This document shows, in pieces, positions 7,870 to 21,609 of a stretch of 31,084 nt of DNA (positions within the stretch are counted from its first letter, which is position 1; the number at the start of each line of letters is the position of its first letter). This stretch comes from a virus. Under the pieces are notes generated by a model that ran no database searches, had not been told where the DNA came from, and saw only the letters and a list, made by a program, of their open reading frames with translations. Location: positions 1 to 31,084 of the IMG/VR virus record IMGVR_UViG_3300025645_000296, one strand, 5' to 3'. A program made the translations under genes and the position numbers.

Positions 7870-10800
7870 GTGGCTGATGAATCCAACAAATTGCTCCAAG
7901 ACGTCAAGGCAATCAATGAAGCCGTAACGGCTGGTGGCCAGAGCCTGTTGAATTTGAGTGAGGCAAGGAATAACGGTAATACACTCGCTACCAACAACAC
8001 GGTCCTGAAGGACCGTCAAGAACTGACACCATTTGAGTTCATCCAAAAATACGGTAACAGAGTTCAGGATATTCTGAACCAAGCAGACCAAGGTTCTGTT
8101 GCTCTTGGTGACTACATGAAAGCGAATAGATCTACAGAGCAGGCTGTAAAAGATACAGCACTGGACGTGATATCAGGTGCAAACGCATCGTTGGGTAACG
8201 TAGGTGTATTGGGCGCAGCAATCCTTAGTCCCAAGTTGGGTCTCGAAGCCAGTAAACTTCTCTCTGATTTCACTGATTATACCCGTGGTGGTCAGTCTAT
8301 TAACCTCAAACGAAATGAGCGTATAACCGCGGTACGGGCTCAACTAGATGAGCAGGACAACAACACTCAGTATGAGGCTGATGTCAAAAAGGATGGTGGA
8401 TTTGTCGCTGGACTGAAATATTTTGGACGTGATGTTTTGGGAGGTTTCTCCCGTACACTTGAGAACCCGGCTATCCTTGGAAGCACTGTAGCTCAAGGTG
8501 TTGGCTCACTGGTCTCAGCTGGGCCTGTTGCCAAGGGACTTGGTCTACTCGGTGCAGGGACCAAGGCAGCTCTTCCTACGGCTGTTGGTCTCATGGAAGG
8601 TGGCGGAGCTTACTCAGGTACTGCTCAGGATATCATGGGAAGATCTCATGAAGACCTGATGCAGACGTCTCCTGAATATGGAGATATGATCTCCTCTGGA
8701 ATGACTCCAGAGGGGGCCAAAGAACGTATTGCCCATAACGGAGGTATTGTGGCTGCATCCATTCAAGGACCTACAGCAGCCCTGTTAACCAAGGCAACTG
8801 GTGTTGCCGGGTTCGAATCAGCACCCTTGGTTCGTAGACCAGCTCAAGAGGCGGTGACCAACGTCCTCAAAGAAGGAGTTGAAGAGGGGTTACAAGGAGC
8901 CACTGGTCAAGCATCTCAGAATATCGGTACTAAGTTCCAGGCCGATCCATCACAAAGTGTCATCCAGGGAACTGGTTCACAGGCTGCAGTCGGTGTGATT
9001 GGAGGCGTGGGTTCCTCTATTGCGATCGCTGCCCCAGGTCTCGTTATTCCCAATGCTTTGAAGGCTGCTGGTCTCACCCTCGATCACACGATCGGAGCTG
9101 GTTACAGATATCTGACAAAGAGAGGCGAAGACGACATAGCTTCTGACAATGCAGAATCTTCTGTATCCCCAGAGAAACTGTCTCCAGTCATCGAATTGGC
9201 AACGGAGCAGGCGTCCGCGACAGCGGAAAGCCTGCGAGTAGTTGCCAATGAACAAGGTGCAAAAGGACCAGAAGTTGAGTCCTATATCGCTAAAATTGAG
9301 CAAGCTGCCCAAGTCACAGCTGAGGATCTTAGTGGTGTGTCTGAGACACTGATGGGGAAACTGGGAGCCTTCAAGGAAGAAACCGGAAAGGTTCCCAATA
9401 GGTTTGATACTCTGATAATGGCGGCTGTCGTTGCCATTGATGAGGATCAGTCAAAAGACGAACGAGTGGCTGCAGCGACATTCATTCTGAAGCTCACCGA
9501 GAACAACAGGAAATTGTTCAAGGAAGATCTCCCTGAGTTCATCAAAAATGCTTCCCAGGATACTCCTCAATTCAAGGAGTTCCAGGGATATGCATCTGCT
9601 TTGGAAAAAATAAGGAATGTCCGTGAGATCAGTCAGTCCCTGAAATGGGCTCGAGAAGAAATGAGAATGTCCGATCAGGATCTGACCGGTGTTGACATCA
9701 ACTCGGATAAGGGAACCAGGATCGTCAACCAAGCCGTGGATGTCGCTACCGTGGCTCCGCATGCTCTGAGCACTCAAGTTGCCGAGCAAATCCTTCTGCA
9801 TGCTGACAACGGGACTCTGGCACTGTCACCAGAGCGTAGACGTATTCTTCGTGGGGCAATTGCCCTCGGTGAAGCTGGAAGGCTCTACGCGGCACAGAAC
9901 AGGCTTATTGAACCAGGTGTCCTGACTGAACAGGGTGATCAATTACAAGCTGAGCTTGATGCGACTAGAGAGAAAGACGAAGCGTCTGAGTTTGTTGGCA
10001 AACAGATCGCAACAGAGGGTGGCAAAGGCGATGGTCAACTCTCATTGACCCAGCACGTCGCTGGGATCAATCACGCCGCAAGTCAGGGTGATAGGGCACT
10101 GGCTCGACGTTTGGCTCAGCACCTGACGAGCTTTGCTAAATCCCACATCAATAAAGTTGGGGCAATGAACCAGTCCATCAAAAATGGTGACGGTAAGAAT
10201 GTTGCCTACAGTGCATTCTCACCGGCCAAGGGTAAGTTCTACTCCAGTGAAAAAGGCTTTGGCGTAAATGTGGGAAGTGCAGGATCTGAGCGCACAGCTC
10301 GTAAGATCCATGCAGAAGCAATGGCGATCGCTTCGTTGTCCAACAGCTTCAAGGAACAGTATCCTGACTTCGGTCTTCCGAACGTCAAGGTTCCAAAGTT
10401 ACTCCTTGATAATACACAAGATAATCAGACTAATATTAAGTCTGATAATGCCTCTAATAATCAAGATAATAAAAAGGGAAGCTCAGCACCTATCGAATCC
10501 AATGTATCATCCCAGGCTACCACGTCCGGGACGGACACTAAAATTCAACAGGAGGAGCTTCCCCTTTCGCCGTCTCAGCTTACCAAGGAACCCGTTAACG
10601 AGACCCTGGCGAGGGTTGACGTTGCGGAGTCTACCGGTAAGGCAGAGATTCAGTCAAGCGAACAAGTTAAGGCTGATACAAAACCAGTCGCTAAAACACC
10701 TAAAGTTACCAAGGTCGTGAAAGACCTTGCGGATCTTGGGTCGTTGATCGACGCCAGAACCGAAAAAACAACTCAGGAAACAACACCAGCAGAACCACTG

Positions 10801-13800
10801 TCAGTGATCGAAATCCTCGACCAGATGTCAGAGGAGGGTGATACGACTTTGTCGACCGCAGAAGCGTTCCCGACACTGGTTCAAGTCAACAACAAGAACT
10901 GGTTCCACAAGGCATTCAAGTTGTCCAAGGATCTGAAGTCCAGGATGCTTGGTCTCAATGAACCATTGAGTGATTTCTACAGATTGTTTGGATCTAGTAC
11001 CAAACTCGTAGCATTCATGAACGGCAAGAAAATCAACTATGATGTTACCTCCAAAGAGGCAGAAGGGTTCAAGAAACTTCTGGAACTCGGAGCCAAGACG
11101 AAGGCTCATGTGGACCAGCGTCTGCAGGATAAGCTAGGTAAAGGTGACCTTCTGAAGCGTATTGAGGATGGCGAAGAGTTGATCCGGTCCCGTGATCTTC
11201 GCGTCCTCAACCTGATGGAAAAGACTGACACCGGTTACGTATATAACAGGGAGCTGATGGAGAGTGCTATCATCGCATCTCTAGACTGGCTCATCAATGC
11301 ATCCAACAGGACCGCTCCACTGTCAGTGACAGATGTGGCAGCTCTTATGGGAGTTGACGAAGATACAGCTTACGCTCACCTGGAAGACTTCAACCACGGT
11401 ATGACATTGAGCTCTGCCAAGCAGTCCCTGGCACAGAATATTCGTAAGTTCTGGGGCGTTGAAGCCAACAAAGACACAAGAGATGCATTCGTTGAGGGTA
11501 TCCCAGAGGCTGTTGCCGCGGAGATCCTACACGGCATGGATATTGGTGAAGGCCAATCCGGATTGCTCGAGCTGGGTATCAAAAAGAAGAGTATCGACAA
11601 GAGGCTCTCGTTCCCAGGAGTGACCGAGAAGAAGTTCAACCGTGTGTTGGTTGATACACAAAATGATGACGTTAAAAACCTCATCAAAAGTCTCAATGGT
11701 GCCCATGATCTGTTGGCTGACCTGGCTCTCATAGACCGTAAAGTTGAAGGGTACTCCATTGGTACAGCCATCACCGAGGTGGACGAAACACAGCTTCGTA
11801 ACCCTATGGTCAAGTTGTCCAATATGGCTAAGAGGGCTTTGAGCAATGCCCAGAAAACGCCATATTTCCCAAATGATGTGGTGTTTGATTTCTATGAAGC
11901 CATGGGCGAGGAAGCCTATGTAACTCTGATGAGCAAGAGTCCTTACAAGGAGGGGGATCTCAAGAAGACGCACACCCAAATGGGTTACAATAAGAACCAT
12001 TGGAAATCTATTCAGGGTCGTCAACGTGGTCTTGTTGCGGATTACCAGAACATAATCAAACAGATGGCATCGGTACGTAAACATGGAACCAATGTTCCTA
12101 CTTTTTACGCGCACCACATCAATAAGCTGGGCCGTACCCAGATGGATGGAGCTTCCAATCCACAGACTTCCAAGACAGCTCGTGAAATCTTCATGCCCAC
12201 AAAGTCGATTCTCGACCTCTCTGGGAATGGTAAGGATCTGGACAAGTTCCTGATGACTGTTGGTCAGGGAATTGGGTTGAAGACCGACAAGATGACACGG
12301 TCCGAAGTCATGTATTCCGTTATGGAAAAGACCATGATGGAAGACGGTAAGTTCTACCCATTTATCCAGGAAATGAAAACCTGGCTTGAGCAAAGAGATA
12401 ACAAAAATGGAAAAGACCTCAATGGTTCCCTCTACCAACTTCTCCAAGATGTTGGTCTCTCTGACCACGGCATGCACTCATTGTTGGCAGTGGCTCGTTA
12501 TGAACTGGCCCGTGACAATGGCACTGATCTAAGTGCTTTTGAGACGTTCAATTATCTCGAAGCGGACGGTAAAACCAACGGACCAATCAATGCACTGATG
12601 CTATTTGCATCTGGTGTCATCACACCGGAATGGCTCACAGCAGTGGCCAAGGGTGGGGCGTTCTTTGGTCGTATTGGAAAGACTGTCAACAGCCACGAAG
12701 ACAAGGTCGACCTCTATAAGGATAGCTCTATTGCAACCCAGGTTCTGCTGTCCGATCTCGGTCGTGAGATTGCCCAGAGCAATCCTGAAGCGCATGCACA
12801 TTTTGTGAAGTTCAAGAGGTTCCTTGCAGCCCTCAATGTGACCGACATCGAAATAAAGGATGGCGAAATCTCTATCGATCGCGGATTGGTCAAGAACCCT
12901 CTGACGATTACGATCTATGGTTCAGGTCCAAAGGGTATCGCCGGCAACATCTCCAATGAGCTCATCTCCACTATTTATGAGAAACTCTCGGAGTCGATCA
13001 AGACTGGTACATCAACCGGTGAATTGATTTATGGGGTTGGTGAGACTGAAGCGTTCATGAATGATCTATCTTCATTGACCTCTCAGAGTGTCCGTAAGAA
13101 CAATAAAACTGGTGGGTATTTCGTCTCTGGATCCAACTCTCAGATCAGTGGAACCATGGAAGATTTCACACTCACCAAGGAGCAGTTCGGTACTCTCCAG
13201 GATAATGTCCTGACATTCCTGGTTGGTCCTCTTCGAAATGCAATTGATGCGAAGGTTACCGGACACGTCAAAGACGTGACGAGTACCATTCAGGCGGCCA
13301 CACAGATCCAGTCGATCATCCTAAAGGGTCTCTTCATTGATGAAGTGACAAAGCAGATTGCTCTTATGCAATCGGACCCAGAAGGTTATGATTATGTGGA
13401 TGGAGAATTCCTTTCCTACAATCAGCTTACCGATATTCGGAATAAGCTCCTCAAGTTCTCTCCGCTTATAGACACCGGTACACAAAGCTACATGATGTCA
13501 GGTGGAGAAAATACCGAGCTGTTTGGAAAGACTACGCACGATATTAACGGTAAGCTCATTGATGTCGTTATGCCAAAAGGGTTCTCTGGATCGTTGAGCG
13601 GTGACATGCTTACGCCGGCTCATGTCTATGGCCCAACAAAGGTAGGTGTGAAAGCCACTCCAACTATGGTCATTGGTTCAGGTGACGGCCAGATGATTAT
13701 GAACATGCTGGCTGATAATCCAGAGGCAGCGCAGCGTGTCCTTCATGTGTTTGATGGTGTGAACCTACCGGCCGATATGATCGACGAGTATTCGACCATG

Positions 13801-16800
13801 GTCAACGAGTCTGTGTTCAAGACATGGACCGGAGATGGTAATCCAGTAAGGGCCGTCTATGAAAGCTTTGCAGCATTCATGGGTAATGACCCGGTTGGTA
13901 CGTTGTTCCCTCTTGAGGGCCTGATTGACGCACACAGGGCCCAAGCCAAGCTCGAGTTGTCCCAGACAAAACTGGGTCGGCTTGATGTTGCTAATGCTGA
14001 GATTCTGCCTGTTACTGTGGCAAGAGCATTTATGGAAGATACCCTTGCTGAGCTGAAGCGGCATGCAGACGAAACTGATATCAGGCGCCAGGTCTACGCA
14101 GAGTTCGACTTTTCAGTTGACCAGATGGCATCTGCAGAGAGCCCATTCGTCAACAAAGGTAAGTTCGTACTGGCTGAAAATGCCACGATGAGTGAGATCG
14201 CATCAGCCATGCAGACTCGTTACGAAGAGTTGCGTGTTGAGAAGGGTCTTAATGCTCCGATTATACAAGAAGCTGAGATCGTTCCCGAACCAACTAAGCA
14301 GGATAAAGTCTCGAACCATACGCTTCGTGATCACATCAACTCCAAGGGTCTGTTTGATGATGAGACTGGAGTTACAGTCATGCATGATCGTCAGCTTGAT
14401 GGTTTGATTGACGCTTTGCCCAAGAAGACCACGGACACCCAGAAAGCTGTGTTGAAAAGCACACTGGAAAGCCTGCGAAACAGTGGATACACATTGGTGT
14501 TTGGTTCATCCGGTAATCTGGATGCATTTGAACAGGAGTACAACGCTGACCGTTTTGTTCGTGGTTCCAACAACCATCACGGTAAGATCGATCTAGTTGC
14601 CAAGATGATCCTGATCTCTAACATCTCTGTTGAGACGTTGACCCATGAAGTTATCCATGCAGCAACCCTCGACAAGGTGCATGCTGCCTATAACAATCCC
14701 AAGGTACTAGGAAATGAAAGTCTTGCCGCGGTAAAACGTATCGAAGGGTTGATGGATGAATGGTTGGCCCAGGATGTCTCATCTGAGAGTGAGGCAATCC
14801 AGGATGCTTACAACTCAGCCAAACTGACGATTGGTGGCCTCAACAAGGATCCATCTCGTAAAGTTGCCGCGGTAAACGAGTTCATGGCCTGGGTCCTGTC
14901 GAACCAGCACCTGAACACGCTGGCTGCCGAGACCGATGTGATCAGTTCATTGAACCGGATTATAGGTAAAGCCTTGGAAGCAGTGAAGTCACTGATCTTC
15001 GGCAAGACAGCGAGTCCAGATGTGGGCACTGACATGCTCTCGAATCTGCGTTTCAACACTCAGGTTCTGATTGCTCAGAAGTCCAAGGTCAAAAATCTGC
15101 AGCAGGATTTCTCTGAAACTGTCCTGCATCATTCTGCGACATTCGGAACCGATTACCGGCTATCCGAGCTACGTCAGAAGTTCAACAACAGGATCGTTTC
15201 CTGGATGAAGGACAACTACTCTGGGTCGTCAAATCCAGTGGTTCAGAAAGCCAAAGCCGATATCCGCAAGGCAGAGCTATTTCAAACAGATCTGGCTGCC
15301 AAAGATGTCACGAAATCTTTTGCTCAGCATTTCCCTGGTCTGGGAACCATGCAAGGCTGGTCGACTTTCCTCATGGTTCAGACTGCTCTGATGACCAACA
15401 TGGAGCTGAATGCCAACTCACTTTCACGCATGGAAGATATCTATGAACATGTCATAGATAAGCTGAAAGTGTCTGACTTCCGTGAGAACAAGAACCCTCA
15501 CGACCAGAACGACCAGACCCAGGCAAACGAACGCCTCAATGCCTTGCAGGGTCTCTATGTCAGCAAGACTGACAAGCAGGGCAGGTCTTCACTGTTGTCC
15601 TCGTTCCTGGCTCTAGCCATGACTGATGATGGTTTCCGCGAGATACTCTCCAAAATGGAGAAGCCAAAGTCTGACAAAAATCCAGAGAAGTCTCTGGATG
15701 CGACGTTGGAAAACCTGGCCAACTCAGAACTGGACCGGTTGTCGATCCTGTTGTCCGGTGAGAAAAGCTCAGATGCTAATGTGCAGATTGCGTTGGATCG
15801 TCTCACACTTGCAATGATCGACAATGTCGGTGATCAGAGGAGCCATATTGAAAAGCGAAGTGAGAGCTTCATTGATAATGCTGAAAATGCGACTGCGAAA
15901 AAGATCCAGGATGTCAGTGGAAAACTGGCTGAGAAGAGCGCGAATATCGCTCGAACCAGCAAGAGCCTACCAGTGAAGGCTGCAGCCACTGTGGTCAATG
16001 TCTTTGCTACCCTACTCAATGAAGAGAAGTCCGATGATGCGAAGCTAGGCATGGTCAGCTGGCTCAACAAACATAACAAGTTCAACACCATTCGTGACAC
16101 TGTCGGAAACGTCATTGGCCGTATGGATGGCAACGAGTTGATCTTCGATATGATCTCGAAGGTTCGTGCAGCTGTGGCTCAGGTTCGTCAGAACTTCCGT
16201 GACGAGCTCCCGGTGAAGTTGGCAAGGGAATTTGCCAAGCCACCTACCAAGGCTCAGTGGACTGCTATGTTTAAGTCCCTGGCCAAGACCGATCTGGCAT
16301 CCATCACGAAAAGCTTTGGTCTGGATAGCGCCCTGGATCTGATCACCAATACCAGGAAGCTCAATCTCGAGATTAAAGCTCTGGAAGTGTCCATAAATCG
16401 CATGGATCCAAGACGGTCAGTTCGTCTTCTCGAAAAGGCAAAGCAACTCGGTCATCACATGATTACCGGTGAGCAGGGTCATAATCTCATGACCAACGCA
16501 GAAGCGATTGCTCGTCTTCTGAGTGAACGTGGAATGCGGGACAATAATCCTTCAACCCAGTTGGTTGAAGAGATCGATCGTCTGGTGACACTCTATTCGA
16601 TCCAGGGTCTGGACCAAGGCACAAGGGATCAGATTACTGAACTTACTCATAATGAAAAGGACCGTGCCGGCCTGGAGTTTGCTATCAGTTATCTCATGGG
16701 TCAGCGGGTCGATGAGCTTGCCAAAATCGGAACCAATATGGTTGCGAAACTGAATCATTACAAAGGACACATTCCGTCAGAAGCCCAACAAGGTGGGTCG

Positions 16801-18510
16801 TTGATTATTGCTTCCGAGACTGAGACAGGTCACCTGTTGGGCCGTGGATACAAGAAGTTGTCTTCTTACAAGGGATCATCTGCAGAGTTTGTCAGTGATC
16901 CGAGAGCCTACTTCTTTGCTCCTGTGTCCGGAACTGCACCCTTCAGTCAGGGCGTTATGCAGACAGTCCATCAGACTGTGTCCGGTATTGATCCTCAGAC
17001 TGGCTTCACAGTCGATGAAGTTATGGCTGGTCGCATTACCAATCCGAATGATGTCAGTCGGATCGAGCGTCAATTGCAGAGAGGTAATCTGCCATCAACC
17101 AGTGAGAACTTACTCCCTCGGTATGATGAGAACGGCAATGTGGTTGCGTTCGAACGTACCGCGGATGTGTCTAAACTGACTGGTCTGAACCGCAGCACTG
17201 ATCTGGCTCAAATGCTTGGTGCATGGCGTGGTCGTCAGGTTGAAGAGATACTGGCTCAGGAATCAAATATGGAGCTGGTCGATAACCTGCACAGCATCTG
17301 GCAGAAGGCTGTGAAAGACGGAAAACAAGGTGAGTTTGTCAACATTGCTAAACTTGGATCCAATAAAGATGATCGTATCCTGATCGAAGCTGCAAATCTT
17401 ATCCCGAGACAGGCAAGAGAGCACATCAAGAACGTGTTTGGTCCTGATGAGTTCTGGGTACGTCGTGACATGCTGCTCGATACGTTGGGTGAACGTCAGG
17501 CATCTGTTGGCGATCTGTTCAGTGGTAAGACACGATGGAATCCAAAAGCTGCTCATGAATTCGAGAAGCTAGCTCGTGGTATCTTTGGTAAGAACGCTTA
17601 TGTTGGTCTGGTTGGGGCTGAAAAGAATGTCCAGGAACTGGTGGCCAACGCCAAGAACATGATTGTGGTCAAGTCTGTCATTGTGCCGGGCGCAAACCTT
17701 GTGTCCAATATGCTGCAGCTGTTGAATCGTGGGGTTCCTCTTCGCCATATCCTCAAGGGCTTCCTAACCAAGACATCTGAGATCAATTCCTACATCAAGC
17801 GTAGAGCTCGAGAAGTTGATCTGGAAGCTGATCTGAGATCAGCAACTGCCAGGAACAATCTTCCTGAAATGAGTAAGTTAGAGAACCAAATCAGAGCGAT
17901 TCAGGACTCCTACAGGCGTATGAGCATCTGGCCTCTGATTGATGCCGGCGAGTTCTCTGCCATTTCCAATGGACAGGTCACCGCAGAAGATCTGGCGATT
18001 GCTGATGGCAAGTGGACAGACTGGGTCGAACGTAAGATGAGGGATCTTCCTAGAGGATTACAGACAGTTTCACGATATGGTCTGGTTACGAGAGACACAG
18101 CCCTGTTCCAGGGTCTGGCTCGAGCTGTCCAGTATGGTGACTTTGTGGGTAAAGCCATCCTCTACGATAATGAGATCAATCAGAAGAAGGCAACACACCA
18201 GGATGCTGTGGCTACCGTCAACGAAGCGTTCGTCAACTACAACCGTCTGGCTGGTCGTGGGCGCCAATATCTTGAGAGTGTAGGATTGCTCTGGTTCTGG
18301 AACTACAAGCTTCGTATCATCAAGGAAGCAGTGTGGACACTTCGCCATAATCCCCTCAGATCTCTCCTAACAGCTGGTGTTCCTATTGGTTCACCAATCG
18401 GGGATAACTTCATATCCGTGTTGCTACAGGGTCGCCTGGGTTGGTCTGTAGGACCAGGAATGGCCTGGAACTCGCTTTCGCTTAATCCTTGGATGCAAGC
18501 GATACGTTGA
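7870..18510 (+). CDS. gp50: Virion-encapsidated DNA-dependent RNA polymerase (N4 gp50-like vRNAP)
   Basis: A 3546-residue protein (N4: about 3500) with a GTG start and GAGG 7 bases upstream. In N4 it is carried in the virion, injected, and transcribes early genes from single-stranded hairpin promoters. The N-terminal domain (about 1-845) has Gly/Ala-rich hydrophobic segments near 106-124, 204-250 and 372-401. A charged, disordered linker runs at about 846-965. The single-subunit polymerase domain (about 1000-2115) shows NKLGR at 1418-1422 (N4 TxxGR), motif A EADGKTNGP with Asp1566, and motif B RGLVKNPLTITIYG with Arg1671, Lys1675 and Tyr1683. Motif C is HVFDG with Asp1962. These lie within about 1-14 residues of the N4 positions I recall. 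The C-terminal region (2120-3546) should drive encapsidation and carries HEVIH at 2259-2263. Confidence 0.95.
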   Translation: MADESNKLLQDVKAINEAVTAGGQSLLNLSEARNNGNTLATNNTVLKDRQELTPFEFIQKYGNRVQDILNQADQGSVALGDYMKANRSTEQAVKDTALDVISGANASLGNVGVLGAAILSPKLGLEASKLLSDFTDYTRGGQSINLKRNERITAVRAQLDEQDNNTQYEADVKKDGGFVAGLKYFGRDVLGGFSRTLENPAILGSTVAQGVGSLVSAGPVAKGLGLLGAGTKAALPTAVGLMEGGGAYSGTAQDIMGRSHEDLMQTSPEYGDMISSGMTPEGAKERIAHNGGIVAASIQGPTAALLTKATGVAGFESAPLVRRPAQEAVTNVLKEGVEEGLQGATGQASQNIGTKFQADPSQSVIQGTGSQAAVGVIGGVGSSIAIAAPGLVIPNALKAAGLTLDHTIGAGYRYLTKRGEDDIASDNAESSVSPEKLSPVIELATEQASATAESLRVVANEQGAKGPEVESYIAKIEQAAQVTAEDLSGVSETLMGKLGAFKEETGKVPNRFDTLIMAAVVAIDEDQSKDERVAAATFILKLTENNRKLFKEDLPEFIKNASQDTPQFKEFQGYASALEKIRNVREISQSLKWAREEMRMSDQDLTGVDINSDKGTRIVNQAVDVATVAPHALSTQVAEQILLHADNGTLALSPERRRILRGAIALGEAGRLYAAQNRLIEPGVLTEQGDQLQAELDATREKDEASEFVGKQIATEGGKGDGQLSLTQHVAGINHAASQGDRALARRLAQHLTSFAKSHINKVGAMNQSIKNGDGKNVAYSAFSPAKGKFYSSEKGFGVNVGSAGSERTARKIHAEAMAIASLSNSFKEQYPDFGLPNVKVPKLLLDNTQDNQTNIKSDNASNNQDNKKGSSAPIESNVSSQATTSGTDTKIQQEELPLSPSQLTKEPVNETLARVDVAESTGKAEIQSSEQVKADTKPVAKTPKVTKVVKDLADLGSLIDARTEKTTQETTPAEPLSVIEILDQMSEEGDTTLSTAEAFPTLVQVNNKNWFHKAFKLSKDLKSRMLGLNEPLSDFYRLFGSSTKLVAFMNGKKINYDVTSKEAEGFKKLLELGAKTKAHVDQRLQDKLGKGDLLKRIEDGEELIRSRDLRVLNLMEKTDTGYVYNRELMESAIIASLDWLINASNRTAPLSVTDVAALMGVDEDTAYAHLEDFNHGMTLSSAKQSLAQNIRKFWGVEANKDTRDAFVEGIPEAVAAEILHGMDIGEGQSGLLELGIKKKSIDKRLSFPGVTEKKFNRVLVDTQNDDVKNLIKSLNGAHDLLADLALIDRKVEGYSIGTAITEVDETQLRNPMVKLSNMAKRALSNAQKTPYFPNDVVFDFYEAMGEEAYVTLMSKSPYKEGDLKKTHTQMGYNKNHWKSIQGRQRGLVADYQNIIKQMASVRKHGTNVPTFYAHHINKLGRTQMDGASNPQTSKTAREIFMPTKSILDLSGNGKDLDKFLMTVGQGIGLKTDKMTRSEVMYSVMEKTMMEDGKFYPFIQEMKTWLEQRDNKNGKDLNGSLYQLLQDVGLSDHGMHSLLAVARYELARDNGTDLSAFETFNYLEADGKTNGPINALMLFASGVITPEWLTAVAKGGAFFGRIGKTVNSHEDKVDLYKDSSIATQVLLSDLGREIAQSNPEAHAHFVKFKRFLAALNVTDIEIKDGEISIDRGLVKNPLTITIYGSGPKGIAGNISNELISTIYEKLSESIKTGTSTGELIYGVGETEAFMNDLSSLTSQSVRKNNKTGGYFVSGSNSQISGTMEDFTLTKEQFGTLQDNVLTFLVGPLRNAIDAKVTGHVKDVTSTIQAATQIQSIILKGLFIDEVTKQIALMQSDPEGYDYVDGEFLSYNQLTDIRNKLLKFSPLIDTGTQSYMMSGGENTELFGKTTHDINGKLIDVVMPKGFSGSLSGDMLTPAHVYGPTKVGVKATPTMVIGSGDGQMIMNMLADNPEAAQRVLHVFDGVNLPADMIDEYSTMVNESVFKTWTGDGNPVRAVYESFAAFMGNDPVGTLFPLEGLIDAHRAQAKLELSQTKLGRLDVANAEILPVTVARAFMEDTLAELKRHADETDIRRQVYAEFDFSVDQMASAESPFVNKGKFVLAENATMSEIASAMQTRYEELRVEKGLNAPIIQEAEIVPEPTKQDKVSNHTLRDHINSKGLFDDETGVTVMHDRQLDGLIDALPKKTTDTQKAVLKSTLESLRNSGYTLVFGSSGNLDAFEQEYNADRFVRGSNNHHGKIDLVAKMILISNISVETLTHEVIHAATLDKVHAAYNNPKVLGNESLAAVKRIEGLMDEWLAQDVSSESEAIQDAYNSAKLTIGGLNKDPSRKVAAVNEFMAWVLSNQHLNTLAAETDVISSLNRIIGKALEAVKSLIFGKTASPDVGTDMLSNLRFNTQVLIAQKSKVKNLQQDFSETVLHHSATFGTDYRLSELRQKFNNRIVSWMKDNYSGSSNPVVQKAKADIRKAELFQTDLAAKDVTKSFAQHFPGLGTMQGWSTFLMVQTALMTNMELNANSLSRMEDIYEHVIDKLKVSDFRENKNPHDQNDQTQANERLNALQGLYVSKTDKQGRSSLLSSFLALAMTDDGFREILSKMEKPKSDKNPEKSLDATLENLANSELDRLSILLSGEKSSDANVQIALDRLTLAMIDNVGDQRSHIEKRSESFIDNAENATAKKIQDVSGKLAEKSANIARTSKSLPVKAAATVVNVFATLLNEEKSDDAKLGMVSWLNKHNKFNTIRDTVGNVIGRMDGNELIFDMISKVRAAVAQVRQNFRDELPVKLAREFAKPPTKAQWTAMFKSLAKTDLASITKSFGLDSALDLITNTRKLNLEIKALEVSINRMDPRRSVRLLEKAKQLGHHMITGEQGHNLMTNAEAIARLLSERGMRDNNPSTQLVEEIDRLVTLYSIQGLDQGTRDQITELTHNEKDRAGLEFAISYLMGQRVDELAKIGTNMVAKLNHYKGHIPSEAQQGGSLIIASETETGHLLGRGYKKLSSYKGSSAEFVSDPRAYFFAPVSGTAPFSQGVMQTVHQTVSGIDPQTGFTVDEVMAGRITNPNDVSRIERQLQRGNLPSTSENLLPRYDENGNVVAFERTADVSKLTGLNRSTDLAQMLGAWRGRQVEEILAQESNMELVDNLHSIWQKAVKDGKQGEFVNIAKLGSNKDDRILIEAANLIPRQAREHIKNVFGPDEFWVRRDMLLDTLGERQASVGDLFSGKTRWNPKAAHEFEKLARGIFGKNAYVGLVGAEKNVQELVANAKNMIVVKSVIVPGANLVSNMLQLLNRGVPLRHILKGFLTKTSEINSYIKRRAREVDLEADLRSATARNNLPEMSKLENQIRAIQDSYRRMSIWPLIDAGEFSAISNGQVTAEDLAIADGKWTDWVERKMRDLPRGLQTVSRYGLVTRDTALFQGLARAVQYGDFVGKAILYDNEINQKKATHQDAVATVNEAFVNYNRLAGRGRQYLESVGLLWFWNYKLRIIKEAVWTLRHNPLRSLLTAGVPIGSPIGDNFISVLLQGRLGWSVGPGMAWNSLSLNPWMQAIR
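10424..10446. repeat. Inverted repeat in the AT-rich linker region of the vRNAP gene
   Basis: ATCAGACT (10424-10431) and AGTCTGAT (10439-10446) form an 8-bp perfect stem around AATATTA. The surrounding 70 bases are unusually A/T-rich and repeat GATAAT, coding Asp-Asn pairs, unlike the rest of the gene. It marks the junction between the N-terminal and polymerase domains. It may have no role beyond low-complexity sequence. Confidence 0.5.
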
Positions 18511-18533
18511 CACGATAAAAACATCGTAATAAC

Positions 18534-18565
18534 AAAACCTCTCCCGATTAACGGGAGAGGTTTTT
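18534..18565 (+). terminator. Rho-independent terminator directly after the vRNAP gene
   Basis: CCTCTCCCG (18538-18546) and CGGGAGAGG (18552-18560) form a perfect 9-bp stem with loop ATTAA. It is extended by AAAA/TTTT to 13 bp and followed by a T-run at 18561-18565. It lies 24 bases after the vRNAP stop. Its 3' arm (GGGAGAGG) also serves as the only ribosome-binding site for the lipoprotein gene that starts at 18568. Confidence 0.93.
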
Positions 18566-18567
18566 AT

Positions 18568-18861
18568 ATGAAACGTGTTCTGATTGTGTTGTCTATTTTT
18601 GTTTCAGGATGTGAAACAACGTCTACGACCTCATATGCGAGTCATGTGAATGGTCGGTATTATCTGGTTGATGAGTTAAATTGCGATCGGTATCAGGCTC
18701 TTCCAGGTCAAGCTCTTCAATGCCTTACAAAAGATGGTAAGCCTACTTATGTGGTGAAGCCTATGACACCGGATGAGATCATTTTCTATCAGCAGTCTCA
18801 GTCTAGAAATAATCAAAGTATGACTTGTTTTACCACTGGGTCTTTGACCACCTGTCAGTAA
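18568..18861 (+). CDS. Small secreted lipoprotein with four extra cysteines
   Basis: A 97-residue protein. The N-terminus is a short lipoprotein signal peptide: Met-Lys-Arg, a hydrophobic core, and lipobox VSGC with the lipidated Cys at position 15. Residue 16 is Glu, not Asp, so sorting to the outer membrane is expected. The mature part has Cys39, Cys52, Cys87 and Cys96, enough for two disulfides in the periplasm, and otherwise looks small and polar. Possible roles are a superinfection-exclusion lipoprotein that masks a receptor, or a spanin-like lysis lipoprotein. It is longer and more Cys-rich than a typical Rz1 and has no Rz partner beside it. The ATG lies 3 bases after a terminator T-tract, and the ribosome-binding site is inside the stem, so expression may be controlled. 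Function unknown. Confidence 0.75.
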   Translation: MKRVLIVLSIFVSGCETTSTTSYASHVNGRYYLVDELNCDRYQALPGQALQCLTKDGKPTYVVKPMTPDEIIFYQQSQSRNNQSMTCFTTGSLTTCQ

Positions 18862-18876
18862 TTACAAATGAGTGGT

Positions 18877-18915
18877 GAGAGGATCTTAGACTTTGTAGGT
18901 CTAGCCCATCCTCTC
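18877..18915. terminator. Imperfect hairpin after the lipoprotein gene; possible end of late transcription
   Basis: GAGAGGAT (18877-18884) and ATCCTCTC (18908-18915) form an 8-bp outer stem. TAGAC (18887-18891) and GTCTA (18899-18903) form an inner stem. No T-tract follows. It is the only strong fold between the last late gene and the opposing minus-strand cassette, so it may end late transcription or block convergent read-through. The rest of 18862-18981 holds nothing I recognise. Confidence 0.5.
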
Positions 18916-18955
18916 TAGGTGTGGGCACACCAAGACGCCACCACGCCTATTGGTT

Positions 18956-18975
18956 GGAGGGTAAATAATACCTCC
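18956..18975 (-). terminator. Weak hairpin after the end of the minus-strand cassette
   Basis: GGAGG (18956-18960) and CCTCC (18971-18975) can pair, with GTA/TAC extending the stem if one base bulges. On the minus strand it begins 6 bases after the zinc-ribbon gene stop. There is no clear T-tract. It is a plausible but weak terminator for the cassette. Confidence 0.4.
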
Positions 18976-18981
18976 CTTGAA

Positions 18982-19224
18982 TTATCGAAAATCGTCGGCT
19001 GTTTTCGCGGCATCAAAATGCCGCGTAACAGTCTCTTTAACGACGAAATCTTCGCCGCACTCGTCGCACGAAAAATCATGCAGATCATCACCCCAGTAAC
19101 TCACAATATGCTGAGATACTTCGCAGTCTTTGGTGTCGATCAGAGCCAAGCAATGCGGGCAGGTAAAGAAATCATCGCCACACATCGCCTTGGCGAGCTT
19201 TTCCAAGTCAACTGGAATAGTCAT
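18982..19224 (-). CDS. Small zinc-ribbon protein
   Basis: An 80-residue protein with two Cys-x2-Cys pairs: CPHC (Cys22, Cys25) and CDEC (Cys53, Cys56). The 27-residue gap between the pairs suits a zinc ribbon. The second knuckle continues as GEDFVVKETVTRHF, a beta-strand pattern usual in these folds. Such small ribbons bind nucleic acid or protein; no partner can be named. It is the last gene of a four-gene minus-strand cassette. Its ribosome-binding site (AAAGGA) overlaps the TAA of the 57-aa gene upstream, so the two should be translationally coupled. Like its neighbours in the cassette it uses CGC rather than the CGT preferred in the flanking phage genes. Confidence 0.75.
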   Translation of the reverse strand: MTIPVDLEKLAKAMCGDDFFTCPHCLALIDTKDCEVSQHIVSYWGDDLHDFSCDECGEDFVVKETVTRHFDAAKTADDFR

Positions 19225-19238
19225 GGTTCAATAGTCCT

Positions 19239-19412
19239 TTAGATGTTGTCTTCTACGACGGTCGGCACATCGCGCCATTCGTGACCGCCAGATGGCTTGT
19301 CAAACCGCTGTTGCAGCATGGGCCTATATTCAAAAACGTCGGGGAGCCCCTTAACCGGGAACGGCTTCATGGCGTACCGCAACGACATGGTTGGGATAAC
19401 TGTTTCGCTCAT
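19239..19412 (-). CDS. Small hypothetical protein (57 aa)
   Basis: A 57-codon gene starting ATG at 19412, with AAGGA about 6 bases upstream, and ending TAA at 19239-19241. The protein begins MSETVIPTMSLRYAMKPFPV and ends WRDVPTVVEDNI. It is rich in Pro and Arg and has no Cys or membrane segment. The strong ribosome-binding site, the exact fit between the membrane-protein gene and the zinc-ribbon gene, and the stop codon that supplies the next gene's Shine-Dalgarno sequence all support a real gene. Codons such as CGG, CCG and TCG match the cassette and not the core phage genes. Function unknown. Confidence 0.72.
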   Translation of the reverse strand: MSETVIPTMSLRYAMKPFPVKGLPDVFEYRPMLQQRFDKPSGGHEWRDVPTVVEDNI

Positions 19413-19521
19413 CGGACTTCCTTATTGTTTGCTGAGATTGACAAGGCGGGCGGCGGCGTCTTTGTCTCAAATGTACGGTCTTATGTATCAAAAGCACCAA
19501 GCTAGAGCGCAGAATATTTTA

Positions 19522-20022
19522 TCAGTGGTTTTGACCGGCTTCGTTGTGTGACGCTTGGATGGGGCCGTTGCCGGCCAGAATAACAAGCCTCGCCGCACTC
19601 CGTACCGGTAGCATGCACAGCACGCCCAAAAACATGACAACGGAAAACAATATGGTAGCGGCTAAGCTATTGGCCAAAATACATGGCACGGCTACGCGCA
19701 CGAAGTCAGTGAGTTCGCGCTTATACGGCGTATTATCTGCCGATCTCTTATGGCCAAATAAATACCTTACAGCCTGGATAAGAGATACAACAAGGACGCC
19801 AATTGCAAGGAACCAAGCCGCGCGGTAGCTATAAACTCGGTCGAGTACTCCGTGAATACCGGCGCGGTCTTCATCGCGTAAATTCGAGTACTTCAATAGC
19901 CGCTCGGCCTTATCTACCAGTTCCATTCTCATCGGGTGCATGACAGAATTAAGGCGATTACCAATGTATATGTAAACGGCAGATGCAGCGAAAGCAGATA
20001 CAATAACCATCTCCACGCTCAT
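19522..20022 (-). CDS. Integral membrane protein of the accessory cassette
   Basis: A 166-residue protein with likely membrane helices at about 4-21, 69-89 and 107-140; the last is long enough for one very long or two short helices. A charged loop at about 22-66 carries Lys/Arg/Asp/Glu and should be cytoplasmic or a small helical domain. The open frame extends 27 codons upstream of ATG 20022. That ATG has a near-perfect Shine-Dalgarno sequence (AGGAGGG), and the longer frame would overlap the 69-aa gene, so 20022 is chosen. Arg codons are CGC, CGG, CGA or AGR with no CGT in the parts I checked, unlike the core phage genes. No family is recognised. Superinfection exclusion, a holin-like role or envelope modification are all possible and unproven. 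About 110 bases after it (19413-19521) hold no gene I can support. Confidence 0.75.
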   Translation of the reverse strand: MSVEMVIVSAFAASAVYIYIGNRLNSVMHPMRMELVDKAERLLKYSNLRDEDRAGIHGVLDRVYSYRAAWFLAIGVLVVSLIQAVRYLFGHKRSADNTPYKRELTDFVRVAVPCILANSLAATILFSVVMFLGVLCMLPVRSAARLVILAGNGPIQASHNEAGQNH

Positions 20023-20027
20023 GACTT

Positions 20028-20034
20028 CCCTCCT
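20028..20034 (-). promoter_or_regulatory. Strong Shine-Dalgarno site for the cassette membrane protein
   Basis: On the minus strand AGGAGGG lies 5 bases before ATG 20022, directly after the TAA of the 69-aa gene. It fixes the start of the membrane-protein gene well inside the longer open frame. Confidence 0.85.
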
Positions 20035-20035
20035 G

Positions 20036-20245
20036 TTATTTGGCGGTACGGATACGAGCGCCAAGCTCGCGACATCGGTTTCGCATACCTGATATATGCA
20101 CATCTTCGAGCAGATCCGCGATGACGGACGCCAGCCCTTCGGTGTTCAATTTGTGCTCAATGCCGACGACTAAATCGCCGCGATTGAGCAGCTTTGCCAA
20201 TCGCTCTTTGTCGACATCTACCATCTCGCTTCGGTAATGCCCCAT
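20036..20245 (-). CDS. Small hypothetical protein (69 aa), first gene of the accessory cassette
   Basis: A 69-residue, mostly helical, charged protein (MGHYRSEMVDVDKERLAKLL at the N-terminus) with AAGGAG upstream of the ATG. It has no membrane segment, Cys cluster or clear helix-turn-helix. The C-terminus (SGMRNRCRELGARIRTAK) is basic. It ends 13 bases before the membrane-protein gene, so the two are probably in one transcript. Being first in the cassette it could be regulatory, but nothing in the sequence proves this. It is rich in CG-containing codons. Confidence 0.68.
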   Translation of the reverse strand: MGHYRSEMVDVDKERLAKLLNRGDLVVGIEHKLNTEGLASVIADLLEDVHISGMRNRCRELGARIRTAK

Positions 20246-20327
20246 TTGGCAGGTCTCCTTCGATTATGCCGGTTCTTTGCATGCGAACTCGAGCGCAGCC
20301 AATTTTTGAGTGAACTGGCATTCCTCT

Positions 20328-20351
20328 GAGACCTCCAATCAAGGAGGTCTC
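20328..20351. terminator. Perfect 9-bp hairpin at the end of the replication operon
   Basis: GAGACCTCC (20328-20336) and GGAGGTCTC (20343-20351) pair perfectly around AATCAA. On the + strand it is followed by TTATCTTCT, a weak T-tract; on the minus strand no T-run follows. The stop codon of the 55-aa minus-strand gene lies in the loop. It probably separates the replication operon from the accessory cassette and may act in both directions. Confidence 0.65.
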
Positions 20352-20506
20352 TTATCTTCTGTACTTTCTTTGATAATCACATAAGATATTAAAGCAATAA
20401 CACCAAAGATTATTAAGAAAATGGTTAGTGGGATTATCCAAACGATTATTAAGAATAATCCCACTGTGAGCAGCCCCGCATAAGCCAGTGCCTTGAAGAG
20501 CGCCAC
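20339..20506 (-). CDS. Small membrane peptide (55 aa), in frame after the acidic-protein stop
   Basis: A 55-codon reading frame, GTG 20506 to TGA 20339-20341. Residues about 9-46 are almost wholly hydrophobic, with a central Pro at 26 and a charged tail KESTEDKRPP. This gives two short membrane helices or a hairpin. It begins one codon after the TAA of the upstream acidic protein and in the same frame, with no Shine-Dalgarno sequence. Expression would need either stop-restart coupling or read-through, which would give the acidic protein a membrane anchor. The clean hydrophobic pattern and the ending inside a terminator loop make a chance frame less likely. A holin-like or anti-holin-like peptide is possible; function unknown. 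Confidence 0.55.
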   Translation of the reverse strand: MALFKALAYAGLLTVGLFLIIVWIIPLTIFLIIFGVIALISYVIIKESTEDKRPP

Positions 20507-20509
20507 GTC

Positions 20510-21049
20510 TTATGCAGCATCCGTATTCAGGTTAGCAAAGAGAGACTTCGCTGCCTGAACTGGATCCTTTTCCTTTTCAGGAGCCGATGGAGCAGCAGAT
20601 GATCCAATGTCAGGGAAGATCTTCAGTGCTGTCGGTTTGACAGGCTCATCGACGTCTGTATCCGGTGTCTTGGCTTCTGGAGTGCGTTTGATAGGCGCCC
20701 CAACATCTGTATCAGTCTCTGGTTCTGGATCAACCTCCTCGACTTCATCAACATTATCGACGAGAGGTGTCTCCGCTTCAGGTTCATTACTGTCAGTAGA
20801 TTCCTCGGCCGCTTCTGCTGCCGCAGCCATTTGAGCCTTGGTTCGACGCTTGGCACGTTTCGGCTTTGGCTCAGTGGACTTTTCAGTCTTTTCGGGTTGA
20901 TCATCGTGATCACCGATCGTGATAATAGCTTCGTTGTCAGAGAGCTCGATAGTGATCTCTTGGTCATCGTCACTACCAATATGGAAGCGATCCAGGAGAT
21001 CGGCCTTGATGGCTTCCTCAATATCGGCCTGGTTTAGAATAATTTGCAT
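20510..21049 (-). CDS. Acidic replication-operon protein, unknown function
   Basis: A 179-residue protein. The N-terminal 45 residues (MQIILNQADIEEAIKADLLD, then a short Ile/Glu strand pattern) look like a small folded domain seen at the start of other small phage proteins. The rest is disordered: a basic patch KPKRAKRRTKAQ at about 62-73, a long Glu/Asp/Pro-rich stretch at about 80-145, and a C-terminal helix with SLFANLNTDAA. No catalytic motif is visible. Its Shine-Dalgarno sequence (GAAGGAG) overlaps the end of the RuvC-like gene, so the two are coupled. A protein adaptor at the replication fork, or a DNA mimic, would fit the charge pattern, but that is speculation. Confidence 0.7.
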   Translation of the reverse strand: MQIILNQADIEEAIKADLLDRFHIGSDDDQEITIELSDNEAIITIGDHDDQPEKTEKSTEPKPKRAKRRTKAQMAAAAEAAEESTDSNEPEAETPLVDNVDEVEEVDPEPETDTDVGAPIKRTPEAKTPDTDVDEPVKPTALKIFPDIGSSAAPSAPEKEKDPVQAAKSLFANLNTDAA

Positions 21050-21054
21050 GTTGT

Positions 21055-21609
21055 CTATACTCCTTCAAGAAGTCTCATGAGATTTTTGAACATAGGCGTT
21101 CGAACGCCTGCATAAATTGAGCCAGTGGCATCAGCCATGTGCTCAGCCTTGTCTGGGACCTTTCCTGCATGCCATGGCCAATTGGCGTCAGGATAGAGCT
21201 CTACGGCTTTGGTGATCATCTCCCTTTTGGTAGCTGTCTTTTTACCTGTAAGGGCAAGTTTGGTCTCAAGTGCTGTGACTTCTATGATGGGGATTCCCAG
21301 AGCCCTTACAGCTCCGAGAACACCGACACATATGCCATAACTTGCCATCGCTCTGGCTGATTGGGATCCAACCGGGACCTCTACAAATATGACCTTGGCT
21401 TTGCGTGCAGCGGACATCATTGGATCAGCCAATTGCTCTGCTACATGCAAGTCAGAAGAGTTCTTGCGTACCTGCTTGCCCTCTAGATCCTTGGGTGTAA
21501 TCAAGGTCAGATGAAGGTTGCTCAGTATGCCAGTAGTCAGGTCCAGGTTGGCCTCGGCCATGGCCCAATTCCGAAGAGATGGGTCACAGCCGAGTACAGG
21601 TATCAACAC
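21055..21609 (-). CDS. RuvC-like Holliday-junction resolvase
   Basis: A 184-residue protein with an RNase H-like resolvase pattern. A first strand LGCDPSLRNW carries Asp9, a second FVEVPVGSQS carries Glu77, and a C-terminal helix KAEHMADATG carries His157 and Asp160 at the usual last two acidic positions. Bacterial RuvC has Asp-Glu-Asp-Asp, so His157 in place of an Asp is a possible family variant. The size is close to that of RuvC (about 170). It would cut branched DNA before packaging. The start is GTG at 21609, 6 bases after the SSB stop, with only AGAG as a weak ribosome-binding site, which suggests coupling to SSB translation. Confidence 0.82.
   Translation of the reverse strand: MLIPVLGCDPSLRNWAMAEANLDLTTGILSNLHLTLITPKDLEGKQVRKNSSDLHVAEQLADPMMSAARKAKVIFVEVPVGSQSARAMASYGICVGVLGAVRALGIPIIEVTALETKLALTGKKTATKREMITKAVELYPDANWPWHAGKVPDKAEHMADATGSIYAGVRTPMFKNLMRLLEGV

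Follow-up and report, generated by a model that had tools for sequence, protein, structure and literature searches.

The segment at positions 18,568-20,245 of the DNA analyzed here most probably consists of accessory cargo occupying a lineage-wide slot in N4-like phages, located between the last genes of the middle operon (encoding RuvC, gp47, and a small membrane protein) and the gene for the virion RNA polymerase (vRNAP); we put the probability of this reading, together with the model of transcription and exchange described below, at roughly 0.72. The DNA (the window) is the IMG/VR virus record IMGVR_UViG_3300025645_000296, which is 31,084 bases long and is a fragment rather than a whole genome. 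Its gene content places it among the Schitoviridae (N4-like phages), as it contains the giant vRNAP gene with the N4 gene order around it; going by its relatives, the phage may have an alphaproteobacterial host. The vRNAP gene (N4 gp50; 7870-18510, plus strand) is an open reading frame of 3546 aa whose DNA matches that of annotated Schitoviridae virion RNA polymerases. The minus-strand block includes, in the order seen in phage N4, genes coding for SSB, a RuvC-like resolvase (gp46; 21055-21609; 57% identity to N4 gp46), an acidic protein resembling N4 gp47 in position and N-terminus (20510-21049; phrog_7641, E 7.9e-5), and a 55-aa membrane protein (20339-20506), and the gene order gp44-gp45-gp46-gp47 is present. 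The 55-aa gene forms the left edge of the slot and is kept at the same place in relatives, with 40-50% identity in L002, L003 and L007, and 48% in L027. A first-pass annotation had described a cassette of four minus-strand genes in the gap between the convergent late and replication blocks, and this description is accurate; all four open reading frames (69, 166, 57 and 80 aa) are present, the vRNAP gene ends at 18510 and the 55-aa gene at 20339, and the two blocks converge on the interval 18511-20338 that separates them.

To compare this slot among relatives we used a survey anchored on RuvC, with loci taken from close relatives, an alignment scan, and phage records. RuvC and vRNAP could both be placed in 74 loci including the window, of which 63 remain after removal of near-copies; three phage records in the other orientation, and N4 itself, whose stretch ends inside vRNAP, were left unplaced. 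In most loci 495-929 bases separate the stop codons of RuvC and vRNAP, and in the rest 1059-3446 bases; the shorter intervals hold gp47 and usually a small membrane gene. With a cut at 950 bases, set after the lengths were known, and with L026 scored as empty (what it has in addition is an HNH endonuclease gene lying upstream of gp47), 39 of the 63 non-redundant N4-like loci have an empty slot and 24 a filled one. On a quick maximum-likelihood tree of RuvC and the vRNAP C-terminus, slot status changes 12 times, and at least eight of these changes are forced by well-supported branches, in a count that does not distinguish gain from loss.

The variation is seen at close range in the clade containing the window (SH-aLRT 98), in which L027, L005 and L007 are filled with differing genes and L002/L003 are empty, such that five members display four different cargos, the window's included, and one empty slot. 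The position of the slot and the presence, absence and differing contents of its cargo among relatives are thus observed directly, and with its conserved flanks and several unrelated cargos the locus has the properties of an accessory slot. The suggestion that the cassette is an acquired accessory unit is supported by this comparison with related Schitoviridae, in which presence, absence and different cassettes are all encountered, and in which the four genes, far from being conserved in all close relatives, are missing there. The exact ends of the insertion cannot be read, because even the nearest relatives are only ~69% identical in their core proteins.

Hairpins are likewise directly observed at both ends of the accessory block. 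The strongest of the region (18534-18564; -21.8/-24.0 kcal/mol, z -6.9/-7.6), absent from the first-pass annotation, lies beside the vRNAP stop and is a strong bidirectional terminator hairpin with a 13-bp stem, U-rich on both strands. A second (20328-20351; z ~ -3.9, with 0-1 of 200 shuffles as good) spans the 55-aa gene's stop codon and has a U-rich tail in the late (plus) direction only; L005, L007 and L027 also have a hairpin at this site or next to it. The cassette had been thought to be bounded by this hairpin and by one at 18877-18915; the former is solid, but the latter is weak, has no U-tract, and is unremarkable on the plus strand (28/200 shuffles as good) although better on the minus strand (4/200). 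A strong terminator next to vRNAP was expected in all loci, but this is not the case; a strong hairpin at most 75 nt from the vRNAP stop is present in 32 of the 39 empty slots and in only 6 of the 24 filled ones, against 3% in the control.

Within the window's clade the cargo has vRNAP on one side and the small membrane gene's hairpin on the other. In all four filled members this hairpin is found where the small membrane gene ends (in L005, L007 and the window it spans the stop codon) and its T-rich side faces the late direction, with 5-7 T of 12 as compared to 1-4 in the middle direction, whereas in three empty relatives the T-rich side of the junction hairpin faces the middle direction (5-9 vs 2-3); this is a comparison of four filled with three empty loci, and the pattern was spotted post hoc. 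The hairpin of L005 is just 22 nt from the next ATG, and there is therefore no space for an intervening promoter. A consensus scan, which does not cover phage-type promoters, found no sigma-70-like promoter in 18400-20700. The arrangement suggests that when the slot is loaded, middle transcription runs into the cargo and late antisense transcription is stopped ahead of the replication genes. In the window, the middle-phase polymerase reading the replication operon would pass the hairpin at 20351-20328, which has no U-tract in that direction, enter the four cassette genes, and halt at the bidirectional terminator at 18564-18534; the hairpin at 20328-20351, U-rich on the other strand, would bar late antisense transcripts from the replication genes. 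Cargo placed in this slot would leave the core gene order untouched, and could be gained, lost and exchanged by recombination.

The same accessory block contains a gene missed by the first-pass annotation, on the strand opposite to the cassette, coding for a 97-aa lipoprotein with the lipobox VSGC (18568-18861, plus strand). It has no match among phage records, but shares 33% identity over 84 aa (E 7e-9) with a lipoprotein in the L027 slot, which is also on the vRNAP strand, and the two phages therefore appear to draw partly on one gene pool. A PADLOC match of the lipoprotein to BrxC (E 0.0013) covers 40 residues of a 1376-residue model, and we judged it to be due to chance. The 3' arm of the terminator hairpin (window 18534-18580) contains the lipoprotein gene's Shine-Dalgarno sequence, such that translation from read-through transcripts may be blocked. 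The phage with L027 (IMGVR_UViG_3300037589_000163) resembles that of the window in having the same slot, 69% core identity, that lipoprotein homologue, likewise encoded on the vRNAP strand, and a small protein starting MANYKAEM (see below), but its slot adds a dUTPase, a YfbR-like phosphatase and a MazG-like protein, and lacks the 166-, 57- and 80-aa proteins.

The cassette itself, all on the minus strand, begins with the gene for the 69-aa protein (20036-20245), followed by those for an orphan membrane protein of 166 aa (19522-20022), with three hydrophobic segments near residues 3-21, 71-89 and 120-138, an orphan soluble protein of 57 aa (19239-19412), which is the least certain of the four genes, and an 80-aa zinc-ribbon-like protein with CxxC pairs (18982-19224). 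Strong Shine-Dalgarno sites had been reported for all four, and relative to a background with its 5% point at -6.4 kcal/mol this holds for the 166-aa (-10.8 kcal/mol) and 69-aa (-8.8 kcal/mol) genes, but the site of the 57-aa gene is moderate (-6.5 kcal/mol) and that of the 80-aa gene ordinary (-5.3 kcal/mol). The 80-aa protein matches phrog_6504, a family of unknown function, at E 3.6e-5 over profile positions 7-59 of 61, which is a modest score from one library; a match to it in L008 was rejected as a homologue since it is confined to a 21-residue zinc-finger motif. The 166-aa protein has no relatives in phages (INPHARED), IMG/VR, genome contigs or plasmids, the 57-aa protein has none in INPHARED or IMG/VR, and for the 166-, 57- and 80-aa proteins no relative of known function was found in INPHARED or IMG/VR. 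A comparison with ten related or otherwise compared records gave no convincing match to the cassette proteins, apart from the relative of the 69-aa protein in the phage of L093. AlphaFold2 models have low confidence, with pLDDT values of 60.4 for the 166-aa protein, which is modeled as long helices, and 59.6 for the 69-aa protein.

A search for the cassette proteins in other phages was productive for the 69-aa protein, with relatives in two other phage types, but not for the 166- and 57-aa orphans. The 69-aa protein is the only one with clear relatives, which are in a 42.6-kb phage (L093) and a T4-like phage (L094/L098), and are 40-43% identical over ~50 residues with an invariant N-terminal MGHYRSEM, from which we coin the name MGHYRSEM family. 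An alignment of the three has 17 invariant columns, of which eight are the motif, and each protein begins with the motif, is encoded by a gene that has its own start, and resembles the others outside the motif as well. The relatives are thus like the window's protein in the first eight residues and the sequence that follows, but differ in phage type and neighbors. In the 42.6-kb phage the gene is directly upstream of what we take, from its translation, to be a NusG-like gene, and in the T4-like phage it lies between genes that presumably, again from their translations, are gp47 and gp46. In the T4-like phage (L094:4417-4904, L098:6528-7015) the MGHYRSEM gene directly follows that of an 87-aa protein with three hydrophobic segments, and in the window it precedes that of the 166-aa membrane protein. 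The 70-aa protein starting MANYKAEM in the L027 slot is not scored by the MGHYRSEM profile. Three matches to the MGHYRSEM DNA pattern in genome contigs look like chance, with no similarity outside of the motif.

The cargo of the slot elsewhere, identified using Pfam, PHROGs, ARAGORN and Rfam, is diverse. Enzymes and enzyme-like proteins include a dUTPase in the slots of L007 and L027, the latter also having the YfbR-like phosphatase and MazG-like protein noted above, a NUDIX protein in L021, and PRA-PH/MazG and ASCH proteins in L005. H-NS-like proteins are encoded in two slots (L069:3542-3949 and L076:6236-6547), and a protein with an RNA polymerase alpha C-terminal domain in a third (L074:6547-7029). 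L027, L045 and L087 each have a small lipoprotein in the slot, and the L045 protein is BamE-like. Some N4-like loci have tRNAs as cargo, and the slot of one N4-like fragment (L033:3985-4393) contains a permuted alphaproteobacterial-type tmRNA (ARAGORN; Rfam RF04321, 84.7 bits; RF01849, 58.5 bits). Of the cultured phages, Piffle, RiverRider, Axy10, Axy12 and Axy13 have little or nothing in the slot, and tRNAs and/or small open reading frames occupy it in Ea9-2, Arace01, Zuri, Meara, LUZ7 and Moo19.

In N4 (EF056009; locus L009) the interval from gp47 to gp50 has the same organization as the window, with gp46, gp47, an unannotated small membrane open reading frame, accessory genes, and a convergent vRNAP gene, but the cargo is different, with four tRNAs, gp48 (PF13876) and gp49, and none of the window's four genes. 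The C-terminal half of gp49 (L009:5886-6368) is similar to the anti-Thoeris protein Tad2 (PF11195, E 8e-24; solved Tad2 chains, E 1.5e-15). The four tRNA genes (Asn, Ser, Thr and Pro; L009:4334-5013) and the membrane open reading frame, of 55 aa (L009:4015-4182), all lie between gp47 and gp48 and are missing from the annotation of the N4 record. A Tad2-like protein is likewise encoded in the slot of Klebsiella phage JZBo1; the slots of Moo19 and EC1-UPM have a gp48-like protein, and their other late slot open reading frame has no Pfam match.

Because three of the four cassette proteins have no informative relative, we judged function by the company kept in the slot. The Tad2-like, H-NS and RpoA-CTD proteins, tRNAs, tmRNA, and nucleotide enzymes of other slots favor counter-defense or host takeover, and our tentative reading, held at somewhat less than even odds, is that the cassette may be a middle-phase set of genes with such a role, with the membrane and MGHYRSEM proteins as its main parts. 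An exclusion or anti-defense role, as the first-pass annotation proposed, is plausible given the Tad2-like domain encoded in the N4 slot and the small lipoproteins in several others; no match of the cassette proteins to an anti-defense family such as Tad2 was found in Pfam, PHROGs or NCBIfam. Superinfection exclusion in particular, in which the 166-aa protein, perhaps with the plus-strand lipoprotein, blocks the entry of a second phage, is possible though unlikely. The occurrence of a three-segment membrane protein and a small lipoprotein in one slot, the recurrence of small lipoproteins in the L027, L045 and L087 slots, and the fact that N4's own exclusion system is not yet assigned (PMC12642591) are all consistent with it, but searches of Pfam, PHROGs and NCBIfam gave no match to a known exclusion protein, and joint expression is doubtful with the lipoprotein gene on the other strand and its Shine-Dalgarno sequence in the terminator hairpin. 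We regard as doubtful a broader proposal in which the gp47-vRNAP junction would be a dedicated cargo dock with a hairpin polarity that switches with load (a middle-direction terminator when empty and a late-direction insulator when loaded), and the cassette a new membrane-based counter-defense or exclusion system including the MGHYRSEM family, which unrelated phages would have in common.

The cassette had also been considered foreign from its composition, and the anomaly is real. Its mean synonymous-codon score is -0.061, as compared to 0.073 +/- 0.025 in the core, where none of 454 overlapping equal-length blocks is so low, and its tetranucleotide distance exceeds that of all 299 sliding windows. 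Of its 27 arginine codons 2 are CGT, as compared to 156 of 418 in the core (Fisher p = 8e-5, CGT against CGC+CGG), such that the scarcity of CGT stands, but the stated preference for CGC and CGG is not uniform; CGA is the commonest arginine codon in the 69-aa gene, and the core gene ruvC also has no CGT. The GC content is ordinary, at 50.3% compared to 48.4%. While the cassette is outside of the core range, such a signal is not peculiar to foreign DNA: a control with two near-complete relatives, based on a crude gene caller, shows that small genes are atypical generally and that slot genes are not clearly worse than the other small ones. Composition alone is therefore no proof of recent acquisition, and we dropped it as a sufficient argument. 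These data bear on the alternative that the cassette comprises ordinary, vertically inherited small genes that are old and fast-evolving, have been lost in relatives, and are atypical in the way that small, weakly expressed genes are. The similarly low codon scores of small genes in the two related phages, and the still lower score of the window's conserved 55-aa gene (-0.153), fit this explanation, and the tree counts changes irrespective of whether they are gains or losses; nonetheless, four different cargos in four clade members are hardly explained by loss alone, and the MGHYRSEM protein is found in unrelated phage types, and we consider this account improbable. A role in lysis timing, with a holin- or antiholin-like membrane protein and soluble partners, is very unlikely even though a small membrane protein with small partners would suit it and N4 displays lysis inhibition, since in N4 the functions for lysis and its inhibition have been assigned to gp60-63, the vRNAP gene and the terminal repeat, with the lysis genes (gp60-63) at a locus away from the gp47-vRNAP slot (PMC12642591), and no holin or antiholin match above cut-off was found in Pfam, PHROGs or NCBIfam.

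The favored interpretation of 18568-20245 as slot cargo agrees with the proposal of Chan et al. (2014, PMC4193335) that the stretches separating N4-like core blocks are likely hot-spots of recombination, which makes the slot a well-resolved example of something known, although in the parts of that study dealing with the hot-spots neither this slot, its cargo nor its hairpins are singled out. The literature searched contained nothing specific on a variable region at the gp47-vRNAP junction, and a limited search found no report of a slot cargo list or the hairpin-polarity pattern, which is weak evidence of novelty. These comparisons place an accessory slot at defined coordinates throughout a large phage family; among the relatives it carries a Tad2-like anti-defense domain (in N4), mimics of host transcription proteins (H-NS and RpoA-CTD), tRNAs, a tmRNA, and nucleotide-pool enzymes. 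The cassette described here probably helps the phage to cope with its host, and the slot is a place to seek new counter-defense and exclusion genes, including the exclusion system of N4.
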